64,000 bases of DNA from Sparassis latifolia (Eukaryota > Basidiomycota > Agaricomycetes > Polyporales > Sparassidaceae). A model generated the notes under the pieces. That model ran no database searches. It was not told where the DNA came from and saw nothing but the letters and a program-made list of their open reading frames with translations. Made by a program: the position numbers and the translations under genes. The stretch's first letter is position 1; every line of letters begins with the position of its first letter. Below are positions 1-41,694 of this stretch, piece by piece. The stretch spans positions 1,488,001-1,552,000 of the forward strand of contig CM031559.1 of the NCBI GenBank assembly GCA_018466975.1, read 5' to 3'.

Positions 1-1049
1 ACGTGTCATGTCGACTCTGCATGACTAGGTCTGCGTTCTGAGACTTCTGAGTCTTTCAAGTTGTTCTCACTCAAGGTCGACAAAACTCTATTACGCCTGT
101 TGGCAAGCATTATCCTGGGCTAAGAATTTTGCGTACTCCCGTTGAAGCCATACGACGCGAACAGCGTCACAACGTTTACACAGCTACGACGGGAAGCTGG
201 GGTACTAAGAGGTACTAAGTAATGCTGAACACAAACTGAATTTGGTGCCTTCCTAATAGCAGAGTCGAGGTACGTTGTCTGTTCTTTGTACCGTAATAAT
301 TTGGCCGAATTTACTTCCGATATTCTAGTGGTCGATGGACATCATCCGCGCCATCGTTAGCTTGACGCGAAGGCTGAGTCGATTGCCAACACTTGATATT
401 AATTATGCTGCGAACGATGAAACTTACCCGTGATTATCCTATGCTTAGTTGTTGCTTCATCACAAAGCGAAGAAGACGAATACATGTGGTCAATCTCTGT
501 CAAGTTCAGACGAAAACCGGTGTAACGTGTGGGTCTACAGTCTGGTCCAGCATTTTGGAGAACCTGTATTGAACTGACCGTCTTAAGGGATGTGCTTGTT
601 GTTGCAAACGGACACGTTTAAATTTTCGTCCTACACTTTGGAGAGATTTCTCAACGTGAATGCCATGCAGGTTGTAATGAATGGACCTCGCAGTCTGCCT
701 AGTGCGGTTGTCTGATGTTGACCTATTAAGATCCAGCGACGACATCCAACAATGATTGAAGGGCAATGTGGGGATGCCATTCAACCTCCCTCTTCCCTTC
801 TAAGTCATAACCACCCTTCACCTACACGAGTGTAGCATCAATGCGCTCTGGTGAGTTTCCAGTTGGCATGCTAACGAGGCATCTCCTTTTCATCGCATCG
901 TGGCCATCGGTTGAACGTCTGGATCACGAGACTGGCTGGCCATAGCCTCATTCATTTGCGTTCATTTGAACATTTGCCTCCACACCTTACCAACATACCA
1001 TCATCTTCCCTGGCTATTACATGCGCCTAGCATAATTCTCCAAGACACA
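1..1049. other. Upstream non-coding stretch
   Basis: No reading frame here has a recognisable domain, convincing splice signals or amino-acid composition typical of a protein. The last part (about 790-1049) is the likely promoter and 5' leader of the zinc-finger gene that starts at 1050. It holds no clear TATA box that I can defend. Confidence 0.5.
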
Positions 1050-1969
1050 ATGTCCCCCGATCCAGATAAGCATAGTGAAGACATGAAGTGCGTGCCTCTT
1101 CCATTTATCGGGTATCGACGTGCTCATGCCTTTACAGCTACTATTTCCAGAGCGCTGAACAGGACCGTCTGATGGCCGAATTCGACCAGGATCTGACGGA
1201 CGCTTGGCGTGAATCGGAAAGAATCGTTGAAACAGACTTCCACATCTATTCTGCGATGCAAGATGACATCCGGTTTTCTGAACTGGCCACGCAGGATGAT
1301 AAAAAGCCATTACAGCCAATCCAGCTTGATGCAGAAGCACAGCCCGCTACACCGCCTACCCCCACGGTTCACTGCTGGAACGATGGTCCTCCTCCTGAGG
1401 TAGAGTCTAGCTCGTCTGCCCGTGATGTCGCAGCTCTCTCGCCTCCGTCTACAAATGGGCCTGCATACGACGAGGTGAACTGGATACCATATCATAAACA
1501 CATGATGTTGAAGGACGATGACAACAACCCTCTGGTCATTCAGAGCCTGGTTACGAACAGATTATACAGGTGTTGCTTTGGCCAACCATGCACCCAACTA
1601 TTTCAGGGTACGGTGGAAGGTATACGTGACCACATTCGCCTATGTCACGCACCACATCATGGAGCTGTAGTCTCATGCACATGCGGGAAGAGCACCAACG
1701 CTAACTCGAACAGAGTGAATGCCTTCAGCCTCCACATCGCGTATGAGCATCTACAATCAATCCAGCACACGTGTTTGGTGGATTTGTGCCCATTCAAGTC
1801 GCAGGAGAGGTGTCATGAATCTGAAATGCATCTTCGGAGAATGCACGGAGCGACACGCGTTCAGAGCGAACGCTATAATCCACGTATTCAGATGGAGGTG
1901 AGTTCTGATCTTCGTATTTATGATCTGAAGGCTGAAGACGCCTGTAGCGCAAAATATGAAGCAAGATGA
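1050..1969 (+). CDS. Small C2H2-like zinc-finger protein (copy 1)
   Basis: Exon 1 (1050-1087) begins MSPDPDKHSEDM. A 50-nt intron (1088-1137, GTGCGT to TTACAG) joins it in frame to exon 2, giving NYYFQSAEQDRLMAEFD near the N-terminus. The C-terminal half carries three Cys/His clusters: CCFGQPC with H-x4-H, a CTCG cluster ending HIAYEH, and CLVDLC ending HLRRMH. These resemble degenerate C2H2 fingers, so nucleic-acid binding is a reasonable inference, not a demonstration. The middle is acidic and Pro/Ser-rich and probably disordered. A GTGAGT donor at 1898 could start another intron, so the C-terminus after residue 270 or so is uncertain. A related gene lies at 38650-39982 and shares the SAEQD...MAEFD motif and the same intron acceptor. 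I do not recognise an orthologue with a known job. Confidence 0.6.
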
Positions 1970-2391
1970 CTGGATGCCCTCTGACGTGCTCCTCCAATCG
2001 CGCCCACGATGCCATATGGATTTTATGCGCCCCTTTTCCTGTCCGTATCTCCCAGAATTCTGAACTCTCAAATCGGCCCCGTCACTGACCATACAGTGTC
2101 GTTCTGCAATTGCTTCTGCTTTAATCCTATTGTCCCATGCCGTCTACTGTACTGCTGTGCTGTTGTAGACGATATATATTTTGTCGGGCTGGTCTTTCAC
2201 TTGAATATTCAACATACAATTAGGTGTAGCGGCGAGGATCGGTGGAAGAACAAGTAACTAAACGGAGAGTTCAGAGCACACGGCAGCAGACCTCGCTCGC
2301 CGCGTCGATATCGATAGTCATGACTTACAAGGCGCCGTCGCAGCAGGAGGGCAGGAGATTTGAGCGACCTTTACAAGTACTCATTGAAGCC
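1970..2391. other. Intergenic stretch downstream of zinc-finger gene
   Basis: I see no supportable gene. It contains the 3' flank of the zinc-finger gene and ends at the left arm of the palindrome. Confidence 0.5.
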
Positions 2392-2739
2392 CAGGCTCCT
2401 AAAACCAGCCGTCGCTATAGCGTTCTCGCTCCTTTATCATATGTTTTAAGAGATCATGTGATATATATATTTTATGAGACTTACCCGCTTGAGCGAGAAA
2501 ATAGCCGAACAAGAGGAGGAGAACACTATAGGACGGCTAGCCTATAATGTCAACCGAGGTTTCGCCGTACAGTGAGAAGCGCCGGATAAGCGCCCACCCC
2601 CCCGGTGTTCTCCTCCTCTTGTTCGGCTATTTTCTCGCTCAATCGGGTAAGTCTCATAAAATATATATATCACATGATCTCTCAAAACATATGATAAAGG
2701 AGCGAGAACACTATAGCGACGGCTGGTTTTAGGAGCCTG
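2392..2739. repeat. 348-bp palindrome (foldback/MITE-like)
   Basis: Two 134-bp arms (2392-2525 and 2606-2739) are near-perfect reverse complements with only about three mismatches, separated by 80 bp. The outer ends read CAGGCTCCTAAAACCAGCCG and its complement. Because the arms match, the same peptide (for example RRYSVLAPLSYVLRDH) is read from both strands; this is a by-product and not a gene. The arms contain a run of TATATATAT. I could not find a convincing target-site duplication, so either the insertion is old or this is a head-to-head pair of one repeat. A foldback MITE is the best label. Confidence 0.8.
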
Positions 2740-3261
2740 TGAACGGCCCAATCACTACGTTTAAGGGCTTTAGAGTCGAAGTCTGACGAGGTGAGAGAAA
2801 GCGCCCTAGCCATGCATCATCGGAAGTAGCCGCATTGTCTAAGTAGTGTGTATCTACATCGATCTGTCTGTCTACGTCTATCTCCATATTCTCATGTAGC
2901 CCAAGTTAAATTTCCCCATGTTCTCCAACATCTGGCTATCTACGGCCTCCAGAAGTCTATGCAGGTAGTTCAACTGTTGTTATCCCAAAGAAATAGACCT
3001 AGTTCAATCATCACGGTTCCACCAAATTCTCGCACCGAGTGTCATCTTTGACACTTAGACTTACTCTAAGTTTTCTGAGTCCCGCTGTACCTACGATTCA
3101 CATGCGCGTCTAACGAACGCTGACGCGGCCCTGATTCACACCACGATTAATCTTCAAGAGGCCGCTCGGGGCTTCAGTGTGCGTCCATATTGTCACACAA
3201 ACGCAGACAACAGATACTTGGAGGGAAACCATGAGCCAGGTATGTCTTTTTAATATAAAGT
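2740..3261. other. Non-coding flank of the transposase
   Basis: No gene is visible. The stretch could include the left terminal region of the Plavaka-like element. A short inverted motif (AGTGTCA near 3038 and TGACACT near 3050) is present, but I could not pair it with a right end. Confidence 0.4.
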
Positions 3262-6200
3262 ATGACCCACTTTGCTGAAATGTCTCAGCAGAATTTCGCC
3301 GTTGGGCAGGGCAGTCGCCTGGTTCTATGCATCTGCGATAAATGCAAAGCAACTGACACACGCGGAGAAGGGATTGAGATGACAATAGCTGAGAGAAGGA
3401 TCCATCTAAGCAGACAGCAGCTGTCACGCTCTGCACTCACCCACCGTGGTCGAGGCATGCAGAAGGCCATTCTTCGGGGTGCCAATCATCCCCGAGTAGC
3501 AGTTTTAGGCACCCTTCGGGGTCGAGGACATGCAGCACCAGCAGGGCCTCTGCGTGGAGGTGCAGCGATCTCTGCGCGAGGCGGACGAGTGTCAGTTGGA
3601 GCATCATGGTAAGCATACCGTGCGTCGTGAGATTCAAAACTCATTCAGAACATGCACAGTGTACCGAGAGGACTTCAAGCTGCCACAAGTTCCAACCGTG
3701 TCGACGTGCTGGCCATGCATACATCACCTATCATAGGTTCTGATGCAGTAATGTCCATCGAAGACGAGCCAGCAGTACCACCAAGTGATCTGATGGATAT
3801 TGACTGGGTACCGCCAAGCAGCGCCAGTATCACAGTTGACGATTCATCAGTTGGACCGGCGCGTGCACAGACACCAATGGAGATTTTGAATGATGCCGAC
3901 ACTGACGATGACATGTATGCAGACCCAGCACCACGGGCGCATGATGTGATTTCTCCCCCATTCGCCAATCATCTTAACTCCCCTCCATCAGGGCGTGCCA
4001 TTGATACTTCCGCCCTTCGGTCTTCCCTACAACACACAGCTCTACCACCTGCTAATTTAATGGCCTCACACATCCCCCCTGCGGCATCATTCGACTCATC
4101 ACAGGCTCAACGAGGGCCTACATTCCCAGACACCTCATTTCCATTGCCTCCCCTTCCACATGTCATAGCCACTGAGTCCATTCCCGTGAGACCCTCTATG
4201 GCAGCAATGACAGATGTTTCGAGGAAGACCCGAGAGCCATCGAGGTGCAAGAAGTGTCAGCGAGTGAAGGAACGTGCCGCCAACCTGGAGGATATTGTCC
4301 CCACCCACGATAATCCTGACACAGGAGATGAATCTTCTCGTACTCAACATGCAGCAGAGATGGACCTCGAAGAGTATGGAACCTTTCTCGAAGACAACGA
4401 GCACAGTGGGATACGAAATCCAGCTCCACACCAGCGAGCATCTCCTATTCATTCTGGTGAACCCTCTTCAGATGAAACCGCTACGATCGATCCACCTGCA
4501 GACCTCCCACCTCCGTTGACCGACATTTACAATGACAGCCACCCAATCTGGTTTGTTCGCATCGTGATCACGCTTGTCATGCTGCTACATACAAAGCATC
4601 ACATCTTGTTCCGTGCATGCGCACTGATACTGACAATTCTTAATGCTATTTTTCTTGTTCTAGGGGTCATCCCCGCCGACGCTCCTATGCCGATAACACT
4701 GCACACTATACTCCATCGACTCGACCTCCGCGATCGGTTCATCGTCCATCCCATATGTCCCTCCTGTCATCGAATCTTTGAGACTGATGTCAAGACGGAC
4801 ATAACGTGCCCATCATGCAATTCATCTGTTTTCGAGCCTGCGATGCACTCTGTATGGGAGCATATCTCTGGCGAGAGCAAAGCCCCACAACGTCCAAAGG
4901 CTTCAGCACCAATCCATCTTCCATCTGATGCACTCGCAGATATGCTTTCTCGGTAACCAGATATTGAAGAAGCATGTGATGAGTGGAAGACTCATGAGCA
5001 TGAGCCGGGCACATACAGGACAATGTCTGATGGCAATGTTTGGCGCAGCGTCAAGGGACATGACGGTAAACTGTTTTTTGATGCCGCCAACACATCGGAT
5101 GAACTACGAATCGGTCTCACGATACAAATGGATGGGTATGATCTTCTCATTCTCATTTAACATGATGATCAAGCTAATATGTTGAGTCGCAGCTTCAGTC
5201 GCAAGACTAGTGTATATGGGCCATCACATTCATCTACGGTCGCATCTGCAGCTATTGCAAACTTACCGGAGGCACTGCGGTGAGATCCATGACACTCTCA
5301 GCGAGTTGTACACTAACACATCTGATACAGATACCGTACAAACAACATAATTGTGTCATACCTGGCACCTGGCCCGACTGAGCCTACCGCTGAAGAGATT
5401 CAGCATTATAACATGCTTGTTGTGAACGATCTGATCAATCTCTATGACAACGGTATAGTCTACTATTCCCCGAAGTTCCCACAAGGCAAGTGCAACTCGT
5501 TTAAGCTGGTTCAAGTCTTGCTGATTAAATGCTGACAGGTCGCCATGTTCGTGTTTTCTTGCTCGCAATCATTTGCGACCACCCAGCTATGTGCAAGATG
5601 GGCAGTTTCGCAGAGAAGAACCATAAGGTTGCACCATGCCCGAAGTGCAAGGTGCCCCTAAGTGAACTGTTTTCAGAAAAGTCGCTGAAGAATGGTGCAT
5701 AGAGCAGTCATGTGGATCACGAGTATGATCTGATTCTAATACTTTTGCAGAATTTGAAGCTCGAACTGGTGATGAACACCGAAAGAATTGTTTTCACTGG
5801 CAGGATCTCAAGACCGACGAAGAGCGTCAGGAATTCTTCAACACCGTTGGGGCATGGTGGACGGAATTTGCATGTCTACCATATTTTGATCTTGTGCGGT
5901 ACTGTGTCATTGATCCGATGCATAATATCTGTCTCGGTGTGTACATTCCATTCGTTATGCTGCTAAGGTATAACTAATGTTCTTCTTAGGTATTCTTAAG
6001 ACACAGTGGTACGCAGTATGGATTCAAGGTGCTGCAATCTGAAGCTCAACTCAGAAAACACCACGAGAGCTTGATGTAATCCACCGCTTTCTCGAAATGG
6101 TATGAAAGTCCCCAGTTCAATTGTGATTCGCTGTACTAATGAAGACAATGCCAATAGTTTGAATCCCCCTCTTGGGCTGCTCAACTCCCGGCTCGTGTTG

Positions 6201-9282: not shown

Positions 9283-9768
9283 CTAGTGCATGGTGAGTAG
9301 AGTCCTTATGCTAATGGGGAAAACTCAAAAGTAGACATAAATGAACTTGAGCCTGATCTATATACTTTCTTACATAGTAAATTGAGTTTAAGTAGTAAAG
9401 ATTTTATGAGCTTTCCTTGGTTGTTATGCTTTTCTTCACCTTAGTTCTTAGAATTCAATGTTTTCTACTTCTTATCTAAGTTGTTAAGCTCATAAAATAA
9501 TTTTATTCAGCTAAACTCACTATAAATTTGTATTGAGCCTAGCACAATATAAACTTATAGTGAGCCCAGCTTTATATATACATATATTAGTGACATTATT
9601 TAGTTTAGTTGTTCAAATTTAATGTTTATTACTTCTTATATAAGTTGCTAAGCTTATAAATTAATTTTATTATCTTAAACTCACTATAACTTTATATTGA
9701 GCCTAGCACTATATAAACTGATAGTACATGACTCCTCACATTATTGTGGTGTAGATAAGTACTATTTG
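9283..9768. repeat. AT-rich degenerate repeat DNA
   Basis: This is low-complexity AT-rich sequence with internally repeated motifs such as AAACTCACTATAA, TTGAGCCTAGCAC and AATATAAACTTATAGTGAG. The last motif recurs near 35520-35545, right of the second relic copy. No gene is present. Confidence 0.6.
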
Positions 9769-12231
9769 TGCAGAGCTTTTGGGAATGTCACACTCTCTTA
9801 TATTAAATGTCAATAAACAAGTTTTGCATAATGAAGGTTGCTAGTTCTTTTCACCTCCTGCCAGGCCCTGATAAATAGGACATATCAGTAGCCTTGAATT
9901 TGATCAGGCTTCTGCCCGAAGATGAAGGGTATGATTATATTCTCTTTATCACTGATCACATTCACTCTGATGTGTGCATTCTGTCAAATTGCACGAACAT
10001 TACTGCCTCAGGGCTCTTTGTATTATTCTTTAATCAGTGAGACTATGTCAATGGCATGTTATTCAACATCATCTCTGATTATGACAAATTGTTCACTTCC
10101 TGCATCTGGACCAAGGTGCATAAGCTCACTGGGTAAAAACTGAAGCTATCTACTTATCATTATCATATCAACAGTCTTAGTGAATATACAAACAAAACTG
10201 TTAATCAGGCTTTACGCTATCATATCCATTGAACCCAGTGTGACTGGGTTCTGTGTGCTATTTTACAAACACTTTGACATAATGAATTTGCTTAACAGAT
10301 TTACTGATTTCTCTAATTTCTAACTTAAGACTTGAGTGATCTCCTGCCTCATTATCCTGTCATATCAAATGCACTCTCTGACATCTTTTCAGAATCACTT
10401 GTGCACCTTGCTATCAACATAATGGTATCCATTGAGCTTGACATGGGTGAGGCATGAGATAATATGATGCAGGGCAAAATATGTTAGGTGCGCTTCACCA
10501 ATGTCACATGTGGGCCCAATAATATTTTTACAGTGAGCAACAAGATTTGACTCTTTATCTTTCATCACTAAACTACCTTCAAAAAGAAGAGATTCTATCA
10601 GGCAGCAAAGTTCTCACAGTGAGACAGTCCCTTCACAGTGAGACAGTCCCTTCACAGTGAGACAGTCCCTTCACAGTGACAGTCCCTACATGCAGTCCTG
10701 AAACTTCAAACTGTACTCTGCTGCTTCCTAACAGTCTCCACACTTTCTTCACCTTCCACGCATCTGAACTGAAGTGACATAAATATAATGATCCCCTCTT
10801 ATTCTCCAGCAGCAAACTTAAACATCCAGGCCCTGTACTCTCTGCAGAAGATTTGAAAGAATGCACAGTCAACAAGATCCTCGACTCCTACTTGGCTGTA
10901 AATGGCAATTCCTTATTAGATGAGCTGAGTATGACTCCAAAGACAATTATTGGCTACTATGTCATGACTGCAAAGACTGCACAGCATTGGATGTTTAGTT
11001 GACTTAGAGTGGTAATGGTCTCACTCAATAGCTTTTTCTCACAGGGTTTTGATGCACCAATTTGCAGGCTGTTCCTTGGTGCTACAAAGTACTTTCTCTT
11101 ACTTTCCTTTTATCTTATTCCTTGCTCACATTCATTCTCTTTACCTCACCCCATGCTCCTTCTTTAATTACACAGAGGATGTAAGGATGTAAGCCTGCTG
11201 CTTATGACACATGGTTACTCATCATATTGTACCTTATTTGTACTACATTGAAGCCACATTAACTTTATCCTGTGGATCTTTCATCATTATCTGCTCTCAC
11301 TCTCTTATTATTTCTTATACCTAAATCTAGCCATCTCCTTCTACCTTGCTTATTTAATACATGCTCATCTAGTTCAGTTTAGTGTGATCCTCATCTCTGA
11401 GTTTTCACTGTCTGGTCACAACTCTAGGCAGTGTTTCAATTTGTCAGCTAATCTAACTCTAATTAAATAAAAATTAATGAGATATCACACTGTCTTTAGA
11501 AGTTGTACAACCACTATTAATAAGTTTTGTCACTGCTTTCTTTTCAGACAGATGTACTAAAGGTGGATAGAGTTCAAAATATGTGATCATATTACAAAAT
11601 ACACAACATTTAGAATCTTTCATGTGATGTCTAGTTGGACACAGTATGAATATTTGCTAAACTTGAGAAGATTTAAGTATCTCAAAAATTAGTAAATTAC
11701 TGTAGTTTAGCCCAGCTCAACAGAAATAACTATTAGCCTTGTGAATAGTGCAGATGCTAATAAATTTATACAAAGTATATTCAGAGCTAATTCCTCTTGA
11801 GTGCATAACTATGATTTTTAATTAACTACAATTTCTTCAGCATTCATGCTAAGATCATATCCAGTTACTTCATTTTTAAGATTAATTTACTTTAGCTTAT
11901 TACTGATGCCATAAGTAGCTCATGTCAGAATTATTATTACAAGAGTGAAGTAATCTTATTTTATTTTCTGGTCTGTAGCAGCTTAATTTTTTCAAAAGTA
12001 TGAGTCTTATACATACTATTTAAATTAATGTTCCCTTCTTATTTTCAGCACTCTGTGACAACTGTCTCATATTTTATTGTAATAAAATTCAAATAATAAT
12101 CAAAGCTTTAGTACCCTGCTAATACTATACTATTTTGACCAACTGTTTACACACTGTGACATGTGACCCTCAGTTTGGCCAGTTCAACAGCTCAGAGATT
12201 ACTAAGACTGGGAACAAATGTCTCTTACTAT
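9769..12231 (+). pseudogene. Decayed Ty3/gypsy integrase-chromodomain relic, copy A
   Basis: Reading through stops and shifts, about 9900-11000 still spells a gypsy integrase. DYILFITDHIHSD and ITASGLFVLFF are followed by LFNIISDYDKLF and CIWTKVHKLTG, then KLKLSTYHYHINSLSEYTNK. After a long decayed stretch comes FTFHASELK...NDPLLFSSSKLKHPGPVL, then DLKECTVNKILDS and NYWLLCHDCKDCTALD, which look like the GPY/chromodomain end of the protein. Many codons have become AT-rich and several stops interrupt it. About 11000-12231 is AT-rich non-coding sequence. The whole unit is nearly identical to 32650-35132. The copy stops exactly at the assembly gap. Confidence 0.7.
10613..10686. repeat. 19-bp minisatellite in relic copy A
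   Basis: The unit TTCACAGTGAGACAGTCCC is repeated about three times, followed by a copy with a 2-nt deletion. The matching array in copy B has one more unit. Confidence 0.85.
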
Positions 12232-12331
12232 NNNNNNNNNNNNNNNNNNNNNNNNNNNNNNNNNNNNNNNNNNNNNNNNNNNNNNNNNNNNNNNNNNNNN
12301 NNNNNNNNNNNNNNNNNNNNNNNNNNNNNNN
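12232..12331. other. Assembly gap (100 N)
   Basis: Exactly 100 N bases, the usual placeholder for a scaffold gap of unknown size. The relic copy A ends at its left edge and an unrelated gypsy fragment begins at its right edge. Confidence 1.
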
Positions 12332-14255: not shown

Positions 14256-14469
14256 GATGCAAGTCCAGAGAGTGTGAGATAGGTTCAAGAGGGAATGCAA
14301 GATGAAAACGACGCACGGAAGTTCCCATGAGACCGGTAGCAATACTAGGCCAGGGTGCAGACAGAAGCGCATTCCCGTGCCTTTCGCGCACATTTGGAAA
14401 ACATTCAATAATATTGGGTGCAGAGCAGGGACAGCGCGTTTATGGGTTCAATGCCAGGAAGGATACTAT

Positions 14470-14786
14470 TGTTATGTGGCAGTGAAACACAAGCATCAGG
14501 TCAAGTCATCATGAGACAAGGTCTTAGTCTAAGACACAAGTCCATTCAAGAGACACTTCTGGCGATGTCCTCGTACTGAAGGTTGGTCAGAGTTTGTTCT
14601 TATGACTCGCAGTAGCTGTCTGCTACTAATGGTCGATCTCAGTCAAAGGCAAGTGAAAAGCTGGTTTAATGGTAACCAGGTCGAGATAGGGATCCAGCTC
14701 GATGAGGTTGTCTACTTATACAAAAGGTATCCGCAGTACTACGCAGTAATACAGGATCATTCATTGGCTAGATAAGGTGAAACGAT
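14470..14786. repeat. Truncated LTR of the same gypsy family
   Basis: It starts TGTTATGTGGCAGTGAAACA and is colinear with the first half of the 641-bp LTRs at 16189 and 30190, including AGTAGCTGTCTGCTACTAA and CTTATACAAAAGGTATCC. Similarity stops near AAACGAT at 14786. It is a partial solo LTR from an earlier insertion. Differences from the other copies are mainly transitions. Confidence 0.85.
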
Positions 14787-16183: not shown

Positions 16184-16188
16184 GGCTA

Positions 16189-16720
16189 TATTATGCGGCA
16201 GCGAAACACAAGCATCAAGTCAAGTCGTCACGAGACAGAGTCTTAGTCTAAGACACAAGTCCGTTCAAGAGACACTTCTGGCAATGTCCTCGCACTGAAG
16301 GTCGATCAGAGTTTGTTCTTATGACTCGCAGTAGCTGTCTGCTACTAACGGTCGATCTCAGTCAAAGGCAAGTGAAAAGCTGATTTAATGGTAACCAGGT
16401 CAAGATGGGGACCCAGCTCGACGAGGTTGTCTACTTATACAAAAGGTATCCGCAGTACTACACAGTAATATGAGATCGTTCATTAGCTAGATAAGGTGAA
16501 GCGATGTCTGGGCAAAGTAACAGCGAGGAAGTAATATGTATGGGAAAGCTGAGTAAGATCGTGAGAGATAATCAGTACTAATGGGAATAACAAGTCATGT
16601 GTCAGAACGAGGTAAAGATGAGGCATACATGCACATCTTGCATGTGTGATAAGAAGAAGGTCCGGAGTTGGATCCGGTGTAACCCTAGACTAGGGGTTCT
16701 GGTTATCTGGATAGAGAATC
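16189..16720 (-). repeat. 3' LTR, first 532 bp
   Basis: It is colinear with the intact LTR at 30190-30830. It starts TATTATGCGGCAG where the other LTR has TGTTACGCGGCAG, that is, with G-to-A and C-to-T changes. It ends at the 7-bp target duplication GAGAATC (16714-16720) of the nested element. Confidence 0.92.
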
Positions 16721-16839
16721 CAGCCCATTCAGTCATGTTTGTGAACTGGACTCCCATTTACCCTGACATTGTCATGAACTGGACAGCCAGCGGACGTCGG
16801 CCCATCGGTCTGTGTAAGGAGTTGTAAGCAATCGGCTCA

Positions 16840-17700
16840 TGGCGAGAAAGGAAATGCTGGAGCGATCGGCCCACCGCCATAGGAGTATTTTTGAGTGACC
16901 GGCCCACCGCCATGGTGCTACTATTATATAGGCACGGGCCCACCACCACGGTGATAGTTCTGAGCAATTGGCCCACTGCCATAGGTGTATTTTTGAGTGA
17001 TCGGCTGACCGCCACTGGGGCTATTATACAGCCATCGGTCGGCTGCCATAGGTAGTGTTCTGAGCGATGGGCCCACCACCATAGGTAGTGTTCTGGGCGA
17101 TGGGCCCATCATCACTGGGGCTATTATACAGCCATCGGCCGATCGCTATAGGTAGTGTTCTGAGTGATGGGCCCACTGCCATAGGTAGTGTTCTGAGCGA
17201 TGGGCCCACCACCACAGGTAGTGTTCTGGGCGATGAGCCCACCGCCACCGGGGCTATTATACAGCCATCAGCCGACCACCATAGGTAGTGTTCTGAGCGA
17301 TGGGCCCACCACCATAGGTAGTGTTCTGGGTGATGGGCCCATTACCACTGGGGCTATTATACAGCTATCGGCTGACCGCCATAGGTAGTGTTCTGGGTGA
17401 TGGGCCCATCACCACTGGGGCTATTATACAGCCATCGGTCGACTGCCATAGGTAGTGTTCTGAGTGATGGGTGTTATTCTGAGCAGTGGGCCCACCACCA
17501 TAGGGGTACTTCTGAGCAGTGGGCCCATCACCATAATGCTATTATTTAGCAATGGGCCCACCGCCATAGGGGTACTTCTGGGCGGTGGGGCTCATCACCA
17601 TAATGCTATTATTTAGTGATGGGCTCACCGCCATAGGGGTACCTCTGAGCAGTGGGCTTACCGACATGGTGTTATTAGTCAGTAATTGATTCACCATTAT
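16840..17700. repeat. 33-bp tandem array, left arm
   Basis: Units of the type GGTAGTGTTCTGAGCGATGG plus GCCCACCACCATA (33 bp) repeat many times. They are mixed with longer units that insert a segment with GGGGCTATTATACAGCCATC. Each unit contains the palindrome TGGGCCCA. Open frames of 60-75 codons here come only from the 33-bp period and are not genes. Confidence 0.92.
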
Positions 17701-17739
17701 AATGCTGGCAGTGCCTGGACTCAGCAAGACACCTAATCG

Positions 17740-19050
17740 CTAACCTGACACTACATCTCTGGTGGAGTTTTTACAACATGGAGTCCTGCCTGAAACTTAT
17801 TGTAGCTGTCGTATAGAGTGCAGTGCCACCATTTTATGAGTTCCTGATATATGGTGAACCATGGCTTTACATTCTAGTGATGGCGAGACTCAAGCTGCCA
17901 AGAAGTCGCCAACCTGGCTGTTCTTCTCTGGCAAAGTGTGTTAAACTTGGAGGACTATTTGAAACTTGTAGCAGAGGATTTATAAAGTTAAATTCCATCA
18001 TTTTATGAGTTCCTAGCATATGGTGAGCCACGGCTTTACATCCTGGTGATGGTGTGACTCAACTAGTAAAAAACTCGCCAACCTGGCTCTCCTTCTTTGG
18101 TGAAGTTTGTTAAACTTGAAGGACTGTCTGAAACTTGTGGAAGAGGACTTATAAAGTTAAATTCCATCATTTTATGAGTTCCTAGTATATGGCGAGCCAT
18201 GGCTTTACATCCTGGTAATGGCGAGACTCAATTTGCCAAAAAGTCGCCAACCTGGCTGTCCTTCTCTGGCGAAGTTTATTAAACTTGGAGGACTATTTGA
18301 AACTTGTAGCAGAGGATTTATAAAGTTAAATTCCATCATTTTATGAGTTCCTAGCATATGGTGAGCCACGGCTTTACATTCTGGTGATGGTGTGACTCAA
18401 CTAGTAAAAAAGTCACCAACCTGGCTCTCCTTCTCTGGTGCCATTTGTTAAACTTGGAGGACTGTCTGAAACTTGTAGCAGAGAATTTATAAAGTCAAAT
18501 TCCATCATTTTATGAGTTCGTAGTATATGGCGAGCCATGGCTTTACATCCTGGTAATGGTGTGACTCAACTAGTAAAAAGCTCGCCAACCTAGCTCTGCT
18601 TCTTTGGTGAAGTTTGTTAAACTTGAAGGACTGTCTGATACTTGTAGTAGGGGATTTATAAAGTGAAGTGCCACCATTCTATGAGTTCCTGGTATATGGC
18701 GAGCCATGGCCTCACATTCTGATGAAGGTGAGACTCAACTAGTACAAAACTCAGCAATCTGACTCTCCTTCTGTAGTAAAGTTTGTCAAACTTGGAGGAC
18801 TGTCTGGGATTGATAGTAACTGCGATATCAAGTGAAGCACCGTCATTGTTTGAGTTTCTTGTAGATGGGAACTATGGCTTAATATCCTGATAATGGCTAG
18901 ACTCAACTGATAAACATATCGCTAACCTGGCTCTTTTTTTCTGATGAAGTTAGTCAAACTTGAAGCACTGTCTGGAATTTATGGTAGACATTTCATAATG
19001 TGAAGTGCCATCACTTTCTGAGTTTCTGATCAATGGTGAGCTATAGCTTC
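17740..19050. repeat. 169-bp tandem array, left arm
   Basis: The landmark TTTTATGAGTTCC recurs at 17832, 18001, 18170, 18339 and 18508, and in altered form near 18677, so the period is 169 bp. Units include GGCTTTACATCCTGG and CAACCTGGCTCTCC. Copies become progressively more diverged toward the centre of the element. Confidence 0.9.
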
Positions 19051-20470
19051 ATATCCTGATAATAGCTAGACTTAACCAGGAAAAGAATGACCAATCTGGC
19101 ACTTGTTCTCTGATAAAGGTTGTCTAACTTAAAGCACTGTTTAAAAATTGAAGTAAATGTTATATCGAGTGGTGCCAGCATTTCATGAGTTCCTTATAGA
19201 TGGTGAGCCACAGGGAAAATGTAACTGGCAATCTGATACTTCTTTTTTCACATACACTGATGAATTTCATATGATATAAAGTACTAACTATAAGTTGTAG
19301 CAGTAGCTATATACTGTGATGTCCTTTTATATGGACTTCTGGCTGATGTCAGGCTGTGTTTGTACATTTTGGCAAAGTGTGGATGCACTGAGATTCAATG
19401 CTGACAATCTGCTATTTATTATAAAGTGAAGTATCTAAGCCTTTCAAAACTTAGAGCAGCAGTTGCATTACTGTTCAATGCCAGTGCTGTATGACTTCGT
19501 AGTTGGTTTTGAGCCACATCTAATCATCCTAAATACACTCACAAGTTAGCATACTAACCGGCTGTGATAATCTTATATATGTATAATATGGAAGAGTGAC
19601 TAAATCTTACAACAGCAGTTGTATGCTCTAAATTAGAAGTCTTGCATTACTTCTTGAAGTTTAGCAAGATACACACAGCCATTCTAATGATCTGTGAACA
19701 CTTTGAGAAGTTCAGCATACAACTTACCATTTCTCTGCATGATACTATGTGTAATAAAGTACAACACTTTATATGCGAGATATGAAGTTGTGATTAGTTT
19801 TTATCATAATCACTTAGTGTTATGTGAAGAATTCAATATTGTCTACCTTTAATGAACTTCACGTGATTTGCTGAACTGGTCAAGGAATCACACTTTCCTT
19901 TTTAGTCTCCGAGTGCACACACATCTACATGAACATAATGGCTCCTATATGTGTTTTCTTCTATATATTTGAGATTCTTCTTCAATACATTTTTCTATCT
20001 ACATTAAAGGATGGTGATTACATAGACCTTATATCACAGCTAGATAGATTCTTGACACACTTATAAGAAGTCTATAGAGCTCAGAGTGAAATATTGCTAA
20101 CTCTTGGAAGTGAACTTTGCTGTTTTTGAGAAGTAAAGCTTGCCAATCACTTAACATTACAGTTGACTACATGTTGTCTTGAAAAGATACATCTGTCATT
20201 TTCTAATAAATCTCTGGCATTTAGTTATATGAAAAGCAAAACACACTTCATAAACTTAAGTGTAGCTCTCTCCAAAGAATTACACTTAATTGTTATTGAG
20301 AATTAATAGCTGTTAAGTCACAATATGATATTGCTACTCCAAGTTGCAGTTCATACTCCACAGTATATAACTTTGGCCATAAGTTTCAGATAATACTCCA
20401 TTGCATACAGACTTCATTACAGAAGCAGCTGGTCGTTTAGCATTTTATGTGTGAAACCATGGCTGGCCAT
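19050..20470. other. AT-rich core between the two arms
   Basis: No open frame or recognisable domain. The edges grade into diverged 169-bp units. The middle appears to be the only unique sequence of the large inverted-repeat element. Confidence 0.6.
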
Positions 20471-21890
20471 CAATCAGGAACTCATAACATGGTGGCCCTT
20501 CACTTTATATAACAGCTGTTATCAATTCCAGACAGTGCTTCAAGTTGAATTAACTTTACCAGAGAAGGACTGCCAGGTTAGTGGAGAATCACCAGATTAA
20601 GTCTAGCCATCATCAGGATGTGAAGCCATGGCTCAACGTCTATCAGAAACTCATGAAATGGTGATGCTTTACTTTATATACTAACTACTATGAATTTCAG
20701 ATAGTGCTCCAAGTTTTGTGAACTTTGTCAGAGAAGGAGAGCCAAATTGCTGAGTTTTTTACTGGTTGAGTCTCACCTTCACCAGAATGTGAGGTCATGG
20801 CTCGCCATATACCAGGAACTCATAGAATGGTGGCACTTCACTTTATAAATCCCCTACTACAAGTATCAGACAGTCCTCCAAGTTTAACAAACTTCACCAC
20901 AGAAGGAGAGCTAGGTTGGTGAGCTTTTTACTAGTTGAGTCACACCATTACCAGGATGTAAAGCCATGGCTCGCCATATACTACGAACTCATAAAATGAT
21001 GGAATTTAACTTTATAAATTCTCTGCTACAAGTTTCAGACAGTCCTCCAAGTTTAACAAATGGCACCAGAGAAGGAGAGCCAGGTTGGCGACTTTTTTAC
21101 TAGTTGAGTCACACCATCACCAGAATGTAAAGCCATGGCTCACCATATACTAGGAACTCAGAGAATGGTGGCACTGCACTTTATAAGTCCTCTTCTACAA
21201 GTTTCAGACAGTCCTCCAAGTTTAACAAACTTTGCCAGAGAAAGAGAGCCAGGTTGGCGACTTTTTGGCAGCTTGAGTCTCACCATCACCAGAATGTAAA
21301 GCCATGGCTCGCCATATACCCAGGAAGTCTAAAATGGTGGCACTGCACTTTATAAATCCTCTTCTACAAGTTTCAGACAGTGCTATAAGTTTAACAAACT
21401 TCGCCAAAGGAGAGCCAAGTTGGCAACTTTTGTACTAGTTAAGTCTCACCATCACCAGAATGTGAAACCATGGCTCACCATATATCAGGAACTCATAAAA
21501 TGGTATTTATAAATTCTCTTCTCCAAGTTTCAGACAGACCTCCAAGTTTGACAAACTTCGCCAAAGGAGAGCCAGATTGCTGAGTTTTTTACTGGTTGAC
21601 TCTCGCCATCACAAGAATGTAAAGCCATGGCTCTCCATATATGCAGGAAGTCTAAAATAGCAGTACTGCACTTTATAAATCCTCTTCTACAAGTTTCAGA
21701 CAGTCCTCCAAGTTTAACAAACTTTGCCAAAGAAGGAGAGCTAGGTTGGCGACTTTTTGGCAAATTGAGTCTCGCCATCACCAGAGCGTAAAGCCATGGT
21801 TCACCATATATCAGAAACTCATAAAATGGTGGCATTGCACTTTATCGACAGCTACAATAAGTTTCAGGCAGGACTTCATGTTGTAAAAAC
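20470..21890. repeat. 169-bp tandem array, right arm (inverted)
   Basis: The complement of the left array: GGAACTCATAAAATGG, GTAAAGCCATGGCTC and AGGAGAGCCAGGTTGG recur at about 169-bp spacing (near 20484, 20650, 20818, 20985, 21155). Confidence 0.9.
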
Positions 21891-21959
21891 TCCACCAGAG
21901 ATATAGTGTCAGGTTAGCGATTAGGTGTCTTGCTGAGTCCAGGCACTGCCAGCATTATA

Positions 21960-23260
21960 ATGGTCAACCAATCACTGACTAATAACACCATGTCGGTGAG
22001 CCCAGTGGCAGTAGGCCCATCTTTCATCTGATACTCTTGGAGATGGGCCCACTGCTCAGCTATTGTACTCTGGCTATGGACCTATTGGTGGCGATAACAT
22101 GCTCTGGTGATGGCCAACCCTCTGACCTTTGGTGGTGAGCCCATTCTTCATCTTACACTCATGGTGATGGGCCCACTGCTTATTGATCATACTTTGGCGG
22201 TGGGCCCATTGCTCAGAGAAACATGCTGTGATGATGGCCAACACTCTGACCTTTGGCAGTGGGCCCATTCTTCATCTTACACTCGTGGCGATGGGCCCAC
22301 TGCTCCTTGATTATACTCTAGCGGTGGGCCCATTGATGGCGACAATATGCTTTGGTGATGGCCAACCCTCTGACCTTTGACTACTCTGATGGTGGGCCCA
22401 TTGCTGGGAGAAACATGCCCTGGCGATGGCCAACTCTCTGGCCTTTGGCAGTGGGCTGATTGCTGGCGAAAACATGTTCTGGTGATGACCTATGCCATGG
22501 GTGCTTGCACTAAGGCCCTGACTGAGGTACTTTGACGATGGGCCCATTGCTGGCAGTAACATGCTCTGGCGATGGCCAACCCTCTGACTTTTGGCAGTGG
22601 GCCCATCCTTCATCTTACACTCTTGGCGGTGGGCCCACTGCTCAGAAGTACCCCTATGGTGGTGGGCCCACTGCTCAGAATAACATCTATGACAGTGGGC
22701 CCACTGCTCAGAAGTACCCCTATGGTGGTGGGCCCACTGCTCAGAACATCACCTATGGCGGTGGGCCCACTGCTCAGAACATCACCTATGGTGGTGGGCC
22801 CACTGCTCAGAAGTGCCCCTATGGCGGTGGGCCCATTGCTCAGAATAACATCTATGACAGTGGGCCCACTGCTCAGAAGTACCCCTATGGTGGTGGGCCC
22901 ACTGCTCAGAACATCACCTATGGCAGTGGGCCCACTGCTCAGAACATCACCTATGGCGGTGGGCCCACTGCTCAGAAGTGCCCCTATGGCGGTGGGCCCA
23001 TTGCTCAGAATAACATCTATGACAGTGGGCCCACTGCTCAGAAGTACCCCTATGGTGGTGGGCCCACTGCTCAGAACATCACCTATGGCGGTGGGCCCAC
23101 TGCTCAGAAGTGCCTTTATGGCGGTGGGCCCATCACTAAATAATAGCACTATGGCAGTGGGCCCAGTACTCCTATGGCGGTGGGCCCAGAAGCCCTATGG
23201 CGGTGGGCCCATTGCTCAGAACTACCCCCATGGCGGTGGACCCATCACTCCAGCCTTCCC
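21960..23260. repeat. 33-bp tandem array, right arm (inverted)
   Basis: Units such as GGTGGGCCCACTGCTCAGAA plus CATCACCTATGGC (33 bp) dominate 22610-23260. From 21960 to about 22610 the units are longer and include GATGGCCAACCCTCTGACC. A period divisible by three keeps frames open on both strands for about 200 codons (a YGGGPTAQN-type repeat). I treat these as spurious. Confidence 0.92.
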
Positions 23261-23397
23261 TTCATCGCCATGGGCCCATCGCTGACAGCTCTCTACACAA
23301 ACCGATGGGCCGACGTCCGCTGGCAGTCCAGTTCATGACAATGTCAGGGTAAATGGGAGTTCAGTTCAGGTAACATGACTGAAAGGTGTGGAGAATC

Positions 23398-23506
23398 GGA
23401 GGTTGTGCTCCGATGAGTCATGTGTTGGATCACGTGGTCTGGTAACGTAAAGGGAACGAAGAAAAGTAAAGGAAAAGATGTGCCATAACTGAGGAGCATT
23501 GTAACA
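23398..23506 (-). repeat. 3' LTR, remaining 109 bp
   Basis: The rest of the interrupted LTR, from GGAGGTTGTGCTCC to GCATTGTAACA. Together with 16189-16720 it totals 641 bp, the same as the right LTR. Just inside (23507-23530) the minus strand is purine-rich (GACGGGAGCTGA), which could be the polypurine tract. Confidence 0.9.
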
Positions 23507-23567
23507 TCAGCTCCCGTCTAACATTTCTTGTCCCACAAGATATATTATAGCCTTCATCATCATCGGG

Positions 23568-23606
23568 ACAGTCCCGAACATAATGATCACCTCCACATCT
23601 GTAGCA
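23568..23606 (-). other. CCHC zinc-knuckle signature before the 3' LTR
   Basis: On the minus strand the segment reads CYRCGGDHYVRDC, a perfect C-x2-C-x4-H-x4-C knuckle, followed by an acidic run (PDDDEG). It lies about 60 bp from the LTR and in a different frame from the 180-aa ORF just upstream. An in-frame TGA precedes it (23622-23624, GP-stop-TGWQ). It is probably the C-terminus of that post-pol ORF, displaced by a frameshift. Confidence 0.6.
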
Positions 23607-23749
23607 CATCTGCCAGCCAGTTCATGGTCCTTGTTCATGTGTATGTCCATCACGATAGGGATGACTGCAATGCGAAGAAGTCGATGCGTGTGAGAAGGAG
23701 GGTTGCGATAATGGGGATTGACCTGTACATGTGAACGAGGGGGGAGAGG

Positions 23750-24292
23750 TCAAACAGGAATTGGTTCTGGTGATGAACGAGGAGTGGATGCAGGTCTCCC
23801 ATCAATGGTGTATCCGAGGATGTGCCCGATGTCTTCATCCCCATGCTCCCTCCAGATCTCTTGTGCTGTATGACTGACCGTACTGCGCATCAGAGACCAG
23901 ACTTGGTCAACTCTGGTTCGGGCTCTACTTGTCCTCTCCTCTGCTGTGATGAGCTCTTGTCTGGCCATCTGCATCCACTCGACCATTTCTAATGCTCGTT
24001 GCATAGAAACCACCGCTTGTCGATCTTGCGGGTGATTCCATAGGGCGACGAGAATATCTGTGAAGTTGACAGGGATGCGGATGGCAGAGATCAGATGTGT
24101 AGCAAATTCTTGTTCGTCTGATGCGTGACTGAGTTCGATCGAAGGTGAAGGCGATGAAGCATGGATGAAGGGTGTCTGTGTTCGGAAGGGTATTCCATTG
24201 ACAAGCGTAGGTGATGCGGGGATGCTCATAATTGTAGAAGCGACTTCAGCGAGTATGTTGTGAACAAGGTCGTCTATAGCAGAAGTGGGCAT
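23750..24292 (-). CDS. Post-pol ORF of the gypsy element (180 aa)
   Basis: The ORF begins MPTSAIDDLVHNILAEV and ends SSPEPIPV at a TGA. The first third is Pro/Ser-rich, while the second part (NHPQDRQAVVSMQRALEMVE and AEERTSRARTRVDQVWSLM) looks helical and may form a coiled coil. It lies on the coding strand between the integrase and the 3' LTR, where most fungal gypsy elements have no gene. The nucleic-acid-binding knuckle at 23568-23606 may be its lost C-terminus, in which case the protein would look gag-like. I cannot assign a family. It overlaps the preceding hydrophobic ORF by 47 nt. Confidence 0.5.
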   Translation of the reverse strand: MPTSAIDDLVHNILAEVASTIMSIPASPTLVNGIPFRTQTPFIHASSPSPSIELSHASDEQEFATHLISAIRIPVNFTDILVALWNHPQDRQAVVSMQRALEMVEWMQMARQELITAEERTSRARTRVDQVWSLMRSTVSHTAQEIWREHGDEDIGHILGYTIDGRPASTPRSSPEPIPV

Positions 24293-24647: not shown

Positions 24648-28469
<3,822 letters not shown>

Positions 28470-29818: not shown

Positions 29819-30189
29819 AGCCAGCGTGGATAAATTCTTCTGTGTGGCCTATGTCTACATGTTGACTGCACACCATCCTCAACTAAGTGGGTTCGTTCGT
29901 CGTTGGCTAACAAGCCCGTAGAGTGTCTTCTATCTTCAAACTGATACACCTATTTGCTGATTGCTCGAGTGATTACCTCAGCCTCCTCGGCCTATTGGTC
30001 TCTCGGACAGACCTCTCTCCGAAGATGAGTGATCAGTCTATCCCTTCAGCTGCCTCGATTACAAAGTAATCTCAAACGGTGCTTTAGCAATCGAATCGGG
30101 TGTATCGTTTAGTCTTCAAGGTTCGGTCCGGTCAGTAGTTCGTTGTTAGACTTTGGGAAGTCACAGAGAGTAATGAGATCTCGACCTAA
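29819..30189. other. 5' leader of the gypsy element
   Basis: This is the untranslated stretch between the 5' LTR and gag. Next to the LTR the minus strand reads TTAGGTCGAGATCTC. It does not begin with TGG, so the usual tRNA CCA-end primer binding site is not obvious. Confidence 0.6.
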
Positions 30190-30830
30190 TGTTACGCGGC
30201 AGTGAAACACAAGCGTCAAGTCAAGTCGTCACGAGACAAGGTCTTAGTCTAAGACACAAGTCCGTTCAAGAGACACTTCTGGCAATGTCCTCGCACTGAA
30301 GGTCGATCAGAGTTTGTTCTTATGACTCGCAGTAGCTGTCTGCTACTAACGGTCAATCTCAGTCAAAGGCAAGTGAAAAACTGGTTTAATGGTAACCAGG
30401 TCGAGATGGGGACCCAGCTCGATGAGGTCGTCTACTTATACAAAAGGTATCCACAGTACGACACAGTAATACGAGATCGTTCATTGGCTAGATAAGATGA
30501 AACGATGTCTGGGCAAGGTAACAGCGAGGAAGTAATATGTATGGGAAAGCTGAGTAAGATCATGAGAGATAATCAGTACTAATGGGAATAACAAGTTGTG
30601 TGTCAGAATAAGGTAAAAATGAGGCATGCATGCACATCTTGCATGTGTGATAAGAAGAAGGTCCGGAGTTGGATCCGGTGTAATCCTAGACTAGGGGTTC
30701 TGGTTATCTGGATAGAGAATCAGAGGTTGTGCTCTGATGAGTCACGTGTTAGATCACGTGGTCTGGTAATGTAAAGGGAACAAAGAAAAGTAAAGGAAAA
30801 GACATGCCATAGTTAAGGAGCATTGTAACA
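30190..30830 (-). repeat. 5' LTR (641 bp, intact)
   Basis: It begins TGTTACGCGGCAG and ends GCATTGTAACA (plus-strand reading), with 6-bp inverted termini TGTTAC/GTAACA. It is followed by the target duplication GGCTA. Differences from the other LTR are almost all C/T and G/A transitions. Confidence 0.95.
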
Positions 30831-32649: not shown

Positions 32650-35132
32650 ATGTGCAGGAATCTTGAGGAATGTCACATTCTCTCGTATTGAATGTCAATA
32701 AAACAAGTTTTGCACAATAAAGGCTGCTAGTCCTCTTCACCTCCTGCCAGGCTCTGATGAATAGGACATATCAGTAGCCTTGAATTTGATCAGGCTGCTG
32801 CCAGAAGATGAAGGGTATGATTATATTCTCTTTATCACTGATCACATTCACTCTGATGTGTGCATTCTGTCAAATTGCATGAACATCACTGCCTCAGAGC
32901 TCTCTGTATTATCCTTTAACTAGTGAGACTATGTCAATGGCATGTTATTCAACATCATCTCTGATCATAACAAATTGTTCACTTTCTGCATCTGGACCAA
33001 GGTGCATAAGCTCACTGGGTAAAAACTGAAGCTATCTACTTATCATTATCATATCAACAGTCTTAGTGAATATACAAACAAAACTGTTAATCAGGCTTTA
33101 CGCTATCATATCCATTGAACCCAGTGTGACTGGGTTCTGTGTGCTATTTTACAAACACTTTGACATAATGAATTTGCTTAACAGATTTACTGATTTCTTT
33201 AATTTCTAACTTAAGACTTGAGTGATCTCCCTGCCTCATTATCCTGTCATATCAAATGCACTCTCTGACATCTTTTCAGAATCACTTGTGCACCTTGCTA
33301 TCAACATAATGGTATCCATTGAGCTTGACATGGGTGAGGTATGAGATAATATGATGCAGGGCAAAATATGTTAGGTGCGCTTCACCAATGTCACATGTGG
33401 GCCCAATAATATTTTTACAGTGAGCAACAAGATTTGACTCTTTATCTTCCATCACTAAACTACCTTCAAAAAGAAGAGATTCTATCAGGCAGCAAAGTTC
33501 TCACAGTGAGACAGTCCCTTCACAGTGAGACAGTCCCTTCACAGTGAGACAGTCCCTTCACAGTGAGACAGTCCCTTCACAGTGACAGTTACATGCCCTG
33601 AAACTTCAAACTGTACTCTGCTGCTTCCTAACAGTCTCCACACTTTCTTCACCTTCCACGCATCTGAACTGAAGTGACATAAATATAATGATCCCCTCTT
33701 ATTCTCCAGCAGCAAACTTAAACATCCAGGCCCTGTACTCTCTGCAAAAGATTTGAAAGAATGCACAGTCAACAAGATCCTCGACTCCTACTTGGCTGTA
33801 AATGGCAATTCCTTATTAGATGAGCTGAGTATGACTCCAAAGACAATTATTGGCTACTATGTCATGACTGCAAAGACTGCACAGCATTGGATGTTTAGTT
33901 GACTTAGAGTGGTAATGGTCTCACTCAATAGCTTTTTCTCACAGGGTTTTGATGCACCAATTTGCAGGCTGTTCCCTTGGTGCTACAAAGTACTTTCTCT
34001 TACTTTCCTTTTATCTTATTCCTTGCTCACATTCATTCTCTTTACCTCACCCCATGCTCCTTCTTTAATTACACAGAGGATGTAAGGATGTAAGCCTGCT
34101 GCTTATGACACATGGTTACTCATCATATTGTACCTTATTTGTACTACATTGAAGCCACATTGACTTTATCCTGTGGATCTTTCATCATTATCTGCTCTCA
34201 CTCTCTTATTATTTCTTATACCTAAATCTAGCCATCTCCTTCTACCTTGCTTATTTAATACATGCTCATCTAGTTCAGTTTAGTGTGATCCTCATCTCTG
34301 AGTTTTCACTGTCTGGTCACAACTCTGGGCAGTGTTTCAATTTGTCAGCTAATCTAACTCTAATTAAATAAAAATTAATGAGATATCACACTGTCTTTAG
34401 AAGTTGTACAACCACTATTAATAAGTTTTGTCACTGCTTTCTTTTCAGACAGATGTACTAAAGGTGGATAGAGTTCAAAATATGTGATCATATTACAAAA
34501 TACACAACATTTAGAATCTTTCATGTGATGTCTAATTGGACACAGTATGAATATTTGCTAAACTTGAGAAGATTTAAGTATCTCAAAAATTAGTAAATTA
34601 CTGTAGTTTAGCCCAGCTCAACAGAAATAACTATTAGCCTTGTGAATAGTGCAGATGCTAATAAATTTATACAAAGTATATTCAGAGCTAATTCCTCTTG
34701 AGTGCATAACTATGATTTTTAATTAACTACAATTTCTTCAGCATTCATGCTAAGATCATATCCAGTTACTTCATTTTTAAGATTAATTTACTTTAGCTTA
34801 TTACTGATGCCATAAGTAGCTCATGTCAGAATTATTATTACAAGAGTGAAGTAATCTTATTTTATTTTCTGGTCTGTAGCAGCTTAATTTTTTCAAAAGT
34901 ATGAGTCTTATACATACTATTTAAATTAATGTTCCCTTCTTATTTTCAGCACTCTGTGACAACTGTCTCATATTTTATTGTAATAAAATTCAAATAATAA
35001 TCAAAGCTTTAGTACCCTGCTAATACTATACTATTTTGACCAACTGTTTACACACTGTGACATGTGACCCTCAGTTTGGCCAGTTCAACAGCTCAGAGAT
35101 TACTAAGACTGGGAACAAATGTCTCTTACTAT
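32650..35132 (+). pseudogene. Decayed Ty3/gypsy integrase-chromodomain relic, copy B
   Basis: It is nearly base-for-base the same as 9769-12231, including its stops and the motif FTFHASELK near 33645. The few differences are single substitutions, one extra C in CCCTGCC, and one extra 19-bp minisatellite unit. The coding damage is shared, so decay happened before the two copies separated, or the two are the same locus assembled twice. Copy B continues to the right into AT-rich DNA where copy A meets the N gap. Confidence 0.75.
33503..33594. repeat. 19-bp minisatellite in relic copy B
   Basis: Four full units of TTCACAGTGAGACAGTCCC type plus a partial one, against about three in copy A. Confidence 0.85.
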
Positions 35133-40850: not shown

Positions 40851-40857
40851 TATATAA
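40851..40857 (+). promoter_or_regulatory. TATA box of the tautomerase gene
   Basis: TATATAA lies 39 bp upstream of the ATG at 40896, a plausible distance for a fungal promoter with a short leader. Confidence 0.5.
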
Positions 40858-40895
40858 CTGATGAGTCCCTGCAACCTTTCACCAGCGAATCAGCC

Positions 40896-41381: not shown

Positions 41382-41694
41382 ATAACTTGAAGTCAGGTGT
41401 TACGCCTAGATTCCCACCGAAATTCATTGGTATTGAGTGTAGAAAGCCTGCCTGAGAGTCGCACCGCACTTGCGAGTATGTCTGCTGTTATGGCCCCTCG
41501 AATCCAATTTGTTCTTCTTCGGAATTGAAAGCCTTTGAGAGAGCGTGACTGGACTCTGTGTGATGAATGTGACACGTCGGAGTAGACGCGTTATGTCACA
41601 CTCACGCCGCGCCAGGTTGTCACTCGCCGCGGCCACCCTCTATTTCCGGGCTTGCTCAGTGGTCCTTCCTCTCTTCGTCGCTACTGCCTGCACA

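Follow-up and report, generated by a model that had tools for sequence, protein, structure and literature searches.

The 64,000-nucleotide stretch analysed here, referred to as the window, is C8:1488001-1552000 of Sparassis latifolia (contig CM031559.1; the genome has 41.4 Mb in 22 pieces, of which C8 is one), and it contains at 16721-23390 an insertion of 6,670 bp without a gene. This insertion is very probably a large non-autonomous transposable element of the KDZ superfamily, most likely of its Kyakuja branch, which has a Foldback-like body and is presumably served by KDZ elements of about 20 kb in the same genome. The Foldback architecture is already known, and no description of it within KDZ came up in the literature search, which covered titles and the starts of abstracts.

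The insertion has the termini CA..TG (CAGCCC..GGTGTG) and is bounded by a target-site duplication (TSD), GAGAATC. An earlier note on this DNA, made from the letters alone, had given this duplication and the element boundaries, and both are exact to the base. The features of the element and its insertion site are as follows, where TIR denotes a terminal inverted repeat and LTR a long terminal repeat.

16714-16720, no strand: left copy of the TSD, GAGAATC, an exact match to 23391-23397
16721-16842, plus strand: left TIR (CAGCCC...), conserved in the 20-kb KDZ elements by the end comparison
16860-17657, plus strand: left 33-bp array with the core GATGGGCCCACCGCCATAGG, resembling the left end of the 20-kb KDZ element
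about 17702-19211, plus strand: left 169-bp array, with no match in the 20-kb element C9:391555-410964
19212-20390, no strand: central spacer, no gene found, 28 near-full genome copies (query 19250-20400)
20391-21858, minus strand: right 169-bp array, mirror of the left array
21846-22007, minus strand: 162-bp mirror of 17650-17811, 96% complementary
22006-22620, minus strand: 124-bp array, right half only, resembling the right end of the 20-kb KDZ element
22624-23250, minus strand: right 33-bp array with a 165-bp higher-order unit
23279-23390, minus strand: right TIR (...GGTGTG)
23391-23397, no strand: right copy of the TSD, GAGAATC, an exact match to 16714-16720
16188-23506, no strand: LTR of a Ty3-type retroelement, split by the insertion (LTR letters 16188-16720 and 23398-23506)
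30189-30830, no strand: sister LTR without the insertion, the empty site

The end inverted repeats, estimated previously at about 100 bp, are found as arms at 16742-16922 and 23188-23368 that are 85% complementary, and the coordinates of the arrays agree with the description of 33-bp and 169-bp arrays in the left half and their mirror images in the right half. The satellites form three classes rather than the two described before, as the 124-bp array of the right half (22006-22620) had been missed. In BLAST at E ≤ 1e-6, inverted matches to the opposite half cover 74% of the left and 70% of the right half; a shuffled element and window 40001-46670 give 0%, and one 20-kb relative gives 1%. The absence of a gene is also confirmed: none of the 19 stop-to-stop open reading frames (ORFs) of at least 70 amino acids reaches the Pfam cut-off, and the sole match at E ≤ 0.01, in a frame that the repeats encode, is to DUF1858 (E = 0.0029), with a score of 18.1 bits that falls short of the cut-off of 32.2. 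No Rfam family reaches its gathering score in 16400-23800. When one 409-nt stretch from a single arm was folded, z was −1.98 and 3 of 100 shuffles folded equally well, which indicates no strong structure inside one arm.

The split LTR, 16188-23506 minus the insertion, is 94.1% identical to 30189-30830 over 642 bases. A Ty3-type integrase core, H2C2 and chromo domains are located within 24648-26258, and we take the two sequences as the two LTRs of one Ty3-type element. The flanks of the insertion, joined with one copy of the TSD, gave a query of 703 bases, of which bases 1-609 align to window 30222-30830 at 94% without a gap. The empty site, for which the earlier note had looked to relatives, is thus present in the same window as the uninterrupted sister LTR, so that a single window shows the occupied site, its target duplication and the state without the insertion. 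Further loci match across the junction to base 609 with 1-5 gap openings (L061, 92%; L031, 92%; L053, 90%), and L064 also spans it to base 547 (91%). The two LTRs differ at 34 of the 609 compared sites, where 33 of the differences are transitions and 14 are at CpG in one copy, a pattern that is methylation- or RIP-like (repeat-induced point mutation). A third fragment of the split LTR is found at window 14466-14786 (92% identical), and a direct repeat of 2.48 kb (9767-12231 and 32651-35132, 98% identical), each copy of which holds a 19-bp tandem array (TCACAGTGAGACAGTCCCT), flanks the Ty3 element on both sides.

The central spacer of the element (query 19250-20400) has 28 near-full copies in the genome, which are 93-100% identical, and four short matches. 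The core pattern of the TIR (30 bases, at most 3 mismatches) occurs at 62 + 61 = 123 places, and the reversed control at none. The pairing of ends was carried out with 113 ends, consisting of 100 of the 123 places and ends from other searches, and with 150 of the 164 KDZ places and all 44 TET places; a pair was defined as adjacent convergent ends less than 26 kb apart, and ends outside the 113 could alter some pairings. Among the matches listed, 41 such pairs were obtained: 20 with a centre and no KDZ or TET place, 19 with KDZ and TET, one with KDZ only, one with neither, and none with both kinds. A KDZ place is therefore present in 20 of the 41 pairs, and the window element itself has none. 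The 20 centre-only pairs span 5.3-16.6 kb, 11 of them 6.4-7.7 kb, and the three long ones (12-17 kb) may carry nested insertions. The pairs with KDZ and TET span 19.3-21.5 kb except for one of 14.3 kb, and the KDZ-only pair spans 20.6 kb. When a narrower set was used (35 KDZ places chosen by eye and the 32 TET places above the Pfam cut-off), the split was unchanged except that one 20-kb element became KDZ-only. Eight of the 28 centres lie outside any pair. At C8:719725-720886, the same TIRs form a pair of 1.16 kb without centre or genes, a possible derivative of the size of a miniature inverted-repeat transposable element.

Both ends were read for 17 adjacent pairs, and nine of these carry exact 7-mer duplications and two carry duplications with one mismatch. 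When all left ends were combined with all right ends, true pairs included, a duplication with at most one mismatch was found in 13 of 952 combinations, which are the 11 true pairs and two cross-combinations of the duplicated copy described below. Among the 11 TSD-bearing pairs, neither 8-mers nor 6-mers match. Two of the nine exact duplications belong to the window copy and its duplicate, so that eight distinct insertions are represented. The termini begin with CA in 61 of 62 ends and with TA in one, where the ends had been chosen by a pattern allowing 4 mismatches. Further copies with the same ends, which the earlier note had proposed to search for together with duplications of 7-8 bp, are thus found, and their duplications are of 7 bp. 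One non-autonomous copy (C10:4331048, TSD TGGAGCT; region C10:4330448-4340349) begins within array-like sequence, 600 bases inward from another end that belongs to this family.

The only 20-kb element that was read is C9:391555-410964 (TSD CGTCGAT; loci L077 and L078). It encodes KDZ (PF18758, E = 1.6e-31), CxC2 (PF18803, 8.4e-27) and Tet_JBP (PF12851, 4.2e-20) domains, all above the Pfam cut-off, and an HMG-box-like ORF below it. In an alignment with CcTet of Coprinopsis, the TET domain keeps HxD and the distal H and R, which we take to be the ligands of iron and the co-substrate. The domain matches the solved CcTet structure 7vpn with E = 8.4e-26, and the Coprinopsis match suggests that it is of the AG type. 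The best named relative of the TET ORF is a protein of Sparassis crispa with 81% identity over 70% of the query, and a second S. crispa protein is 100% identical over 13%. The genome contains 164 PF18758 matches in total, many of them outside paired elements of this TIR family and some near-full domains in one frame; those outside the pairs are taken as other KDZ families. Judged by these domains and by the common ends described below, a transposase source for the gene-free element is likely to be present in the genome.

Over bases 1-619, which include the 33-bp array, the window element shows 83% identity with the left end of C9:391555-410964, and the sequence from window 22006 onward matches its right end piecewise at 78-88% (among the matches listed, 59 of 87). 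Element bases 913-5285, consisting of the 169-bp arrays and the centre, have no match in C9:391555-410964 at E ≤ 1e-5. The ends were compared between non-autonomous and KDZ copies (10 and 13 left ends; 12 and 10 right ends), using the first 80 pairs per comparison, with 17 of the 62 ends left out as unassigned. The left ends are 99% identical in bases 1-40 and 98% in bases 41-90, and then 88, 85, 75 and 76%; the right ends are 99% identical in bases 1-40 and 86% in bases 41-90, and then 43-66%. Such a pattern would follow if a single transposase chose the ends of both kinds of element. The earlier claim that the element had been moved in trans stands insofar as a transposase-bearing partner with the same ends exists, and the movement itself we infer.

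By sequence comparison, the outer arrays are common to the window element and the 20-kb KDZ partner, and the 169-bp arms are private to the gene-free element. The four arrays of the 33-bp type, at both ends of both element types, have a common core around GGGCCCACCGCCAtAGG with a more variable spacer. With up to 3 mismatches allowed, this core is enriched in the arrays and not exclusive to them: it turns up 12 more times in the 57 kb of the window outside the element, and 13 times within the 20-kb element's interior of 16.4 kb. Of the exact palindrome TGGGCCCA, the window element has 39 copies and the remaining 57 kb of the window two; the 20-kb element has 16, all in the outer 1.5-kb ends. 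By analogy with Galileo, discussed below, the outer arrays are likely to be transposase binding sites.

The 169-bp arrays flank the centre on both sides in seven of eight loci (six of seven without the duplicate), and locus L016 has the right array only. The length of the arrays varies among copies, and higher-order units of 338 bp are found in three of the eight loci. The size of the 169-bp unit is itself satellite-like, which is in favor of the possibility that the arrays are ordinary genomic satellites that received transposon ends. When a 338-bp unit was used as the query (187 matches, 150 places listed; 40 of 67 candidates scored), however, 144 of the 150 places listed were no more than 5 kb from an element centre, and the remaining six lay near the TIR ends C11:1333825 and C12:2109076, at most 2.5 kb away; such an origin of the arrays is extremely improbable.

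In the window copy, 11 units were identified, which is not every unit. Units close to the loop differ between the left and right arms (WL7 and WR4, 66%), and both are 96-99% similar to their counterparts on the same side in other copies. Outer mirror partners are near-identical (WL5 and WR2, 99%; WL6 and WR3, 96%; A13L3 and A13R5, 100%), which is above most neighbors in the same arm; exceptions are WL2 and WL4, which are 95% alike within one arm, and the outermost right unit WR1, the best mirror partner of which is only 80% alike. In one mirror pair, four columns distinguish the window copy from C10:1232117: the two arms agree within each of these copies, but the state differs between the copies. 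Either state is found in single arms of other copies. The second group of units (g2) has no arm-shared state. This likeness of the units would be accounted for by exchange between the two arms of an element or by repeated inverted duplication, as far as the few informative sites go.

The copy at C8:1962096-1968757 requires separate consideration because it has the flanks of the window copy, 99.9% identical over 1,500 bases on each side. A single alignment through this copy has 8,914 columns with 99.65% identity and 21 gap positions, and the two copies lie in an inverted duplicate of 23.8 kb (window 12332-36162 and C8:1949342-1972917) with pieces of 97.6-99.7% identity. Window 1101-2000 and 62801-63800 are single-copy. 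Because the segment starts at a run of N (window 12232-12331), its start looks like a scaffold gap, and the duplicate may be a real segmental duplication or an assembly product. An independent transposition was rejected as the origin of this near-identical second copy, since the flanks are common to both. Two more pairs share flanks (C8:1439306 and C8:2367486; C10:2838182 and C11:3042893), which means that independent insertions are fewer than copies. These observations bear out one part of a rival explanation, in which assembly error produced the mirror half, a possibility raised in the earlier note, and the second copy did not arise by transposition. The other part conflicts with the recurrence of the mirrored plan in copies with other flanks and TSDs and with the unit-specific differences in both arms, and there is hardly any probability that the explanation holds as a whole. 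The mirrored structure is not an assembly artefact, because the 169-bp arrays flank the centre in all but one of the loci.

The likeness to and difference from published elements are discussed below on the basis of those portions of the cited papers that were covered. Kyakuja elements have 7-bp TSDs, CA..TG termini and TET genes, and occur in Agaricomycetes including Polyporales (Kojima 2025, PMC12730594). The 7-bp TSDs and CA..TG ends of the present elements match Kyakuja, which leads to the placement in KDZ and probably in Kyakuja; the partner contributes the KDZ domain PF18758, the associated CxC cluster (CxC2) and the TET/JBP gene. The differences from Kyakuja as published are the TIRs and the subterminal arrays, and, in the window element, the lack of genes and the private, mirrored 169-bp arms. 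In the main text of PMC12730594, the words 'Sparassis', 'nonautonomous', 'subterminal' and 'satellite' are absent, and 'non-autonomous' occurs once.

An assignment to the Zisupton or Dileera branch of KDZ instead is unlikely. PF18758 covers all three branches, the Kyakuja placement rests on TSD, termini and TET, and KDZ2 and KDZ3 of Cryptococcus have TIRs and TSDs of 4-8 bp (PMC12810828), which would be compatible with another branch. However, the TSDs reported for Zisupton and for the Puccinia graminis Dileera are 8 bp long, compared with 7 bp and CA..TG here, and in Polyporales, to which Sparassis belongs, TET genes were found only with Kyakuja (PMC12730594).

Several observations weigh against the assignment to a Kyakuja-type element mobilized by the 20-kb partners. 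The KDZ match of C9:391555-410964 holds a stop; nine other KDZ matches, among those listed, have open frames of 384-387 codons that are stop-free within the match. No TSD was found in six of the 17 adjacent pairs or in any of the four non-adjacent pairs, which indicates that some copies are recombined, chimeric or wrongly paired. The TIRs present here are at variance with two Laccaria Kyakuja families that are stated to have none (PMC12730594); this is treated as a difference at the level of the family because other KDZ elements have TIRs. Among these are KDZ1-3 of Cryptococcus, which were seen inserting into a reporter gene and share with the present elements the superfamily and TIRs (139-241 bp), but differ in their length of about 9-11 kb, in CxC1 and in TSDs of 8 bp (KDZ1) or 4-8 bp, and have no foldback body in the parts of that paper covered (PMC12810828).

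The earlier note knew of no named family with this plan. The plan is nevertheless that of Foldback elements such as Tetris and Galileo (PMC4079207, PMC3573991, PMC3688188), as long inverted repeats of internal tandem repeats surround a variable non-coding middle. Tetris of Drosophila virilis is likewise non-autonomous, with long TIRs, a flanking domain, a non-coding middle and internal tandem repeats of about 220 bp in varying number (PMC4079207). Most Foldback elements seem to be of the Mutator type (PMC4079207), and the Foldback-like plan of long repetitive inverted repeats around a gene-free middle would accordingly suit a Mutator-type Foldback element unrelated to KDZ. The TSD of 7 bp, compared with 8-10 bp in Tetris, for which the Mutator superfamily was suggested, and the presence of a KDZ transposase domain in elements bounded by the same ends, make this origin very improbable. 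An autonomous partner of Tetris was sought by its authors and not found (PMC4079207), whereas a partner with the same ends is found here. Galileo, of the P superfamily in Drosophila, also has Foldback-like TIRs with tandem repeats; these hold binding sites of the transposase (THAP), and active exchange of sequence among copies was proposed (PMC3573991, PMC3688188). It differs in its P-type transposase and in its sequences, and the binding of the arrays is presumed in the present case. No KDZ foldback and no array-bearing non-autonomous KDZ element was found among the papers listed in a literature search covering titles and the starts of abstracts, outside subscription papers, supplements and Repbase.

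In the proposed mechanism, the 20-kb KDZ elements with transposase, CxC2 and TET/JBP domains would supply the transposase, which would recognize the common ends, about 90 bases on the left and 40-90 bases on the right, and probably also the subterminal GGGCCCACCGCC arrays. The gene-free element would be moved by cut-and-paste with 7-bp target duplications, presumably in trans. The inner 169-bp arms would be a private acquisition of variable length, apparently homogenized between the arms, possibly by exchange.

The observed/expected ratio of CpG is 0.15-0.51 in the five parts of the element, 0.81 in the interior of the 20-kb element, 0.70 in the Ty3 element and 1.03 in window 40001-64000. Such a depletion fits methylation-driven decay without being proof of methylation. 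Among seven copies of the centre, C>T or G>A changes were found at 6 of 69 CpG sites and at 31 of 2667 other C/G sites, which are small numbers, and 25 of the 75 changes are transversions. The 169-bp unit is near the size of the nucleosome repeat. It is conceivable, although doubtful, that the 169-bp arms are a functional palindromic satellite acquired by non-autonomous KDZ elements and kept alike by arm-to-arm conversion, and that long double-stranded RNA or phased heterochromatin draws host silencing to the gene-free copies while the partner, bearing TET as an oxidase that erases methylation, supplies the transposase.

With this element, the KDZ superfamily gains a non-autonomous subfamily of Foldback type, and the same genome holds what is likely to be the source of its transposase. 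Because gene-free and TET-bearing copies share their ends in one assembly, it can be asked directly whether a demethylase encoded by a transposon also acts on the parasites of that transposon in trans, and the origin and upkeep of alike inverted satellite arms inside a mobile element can be addressed in the same system.

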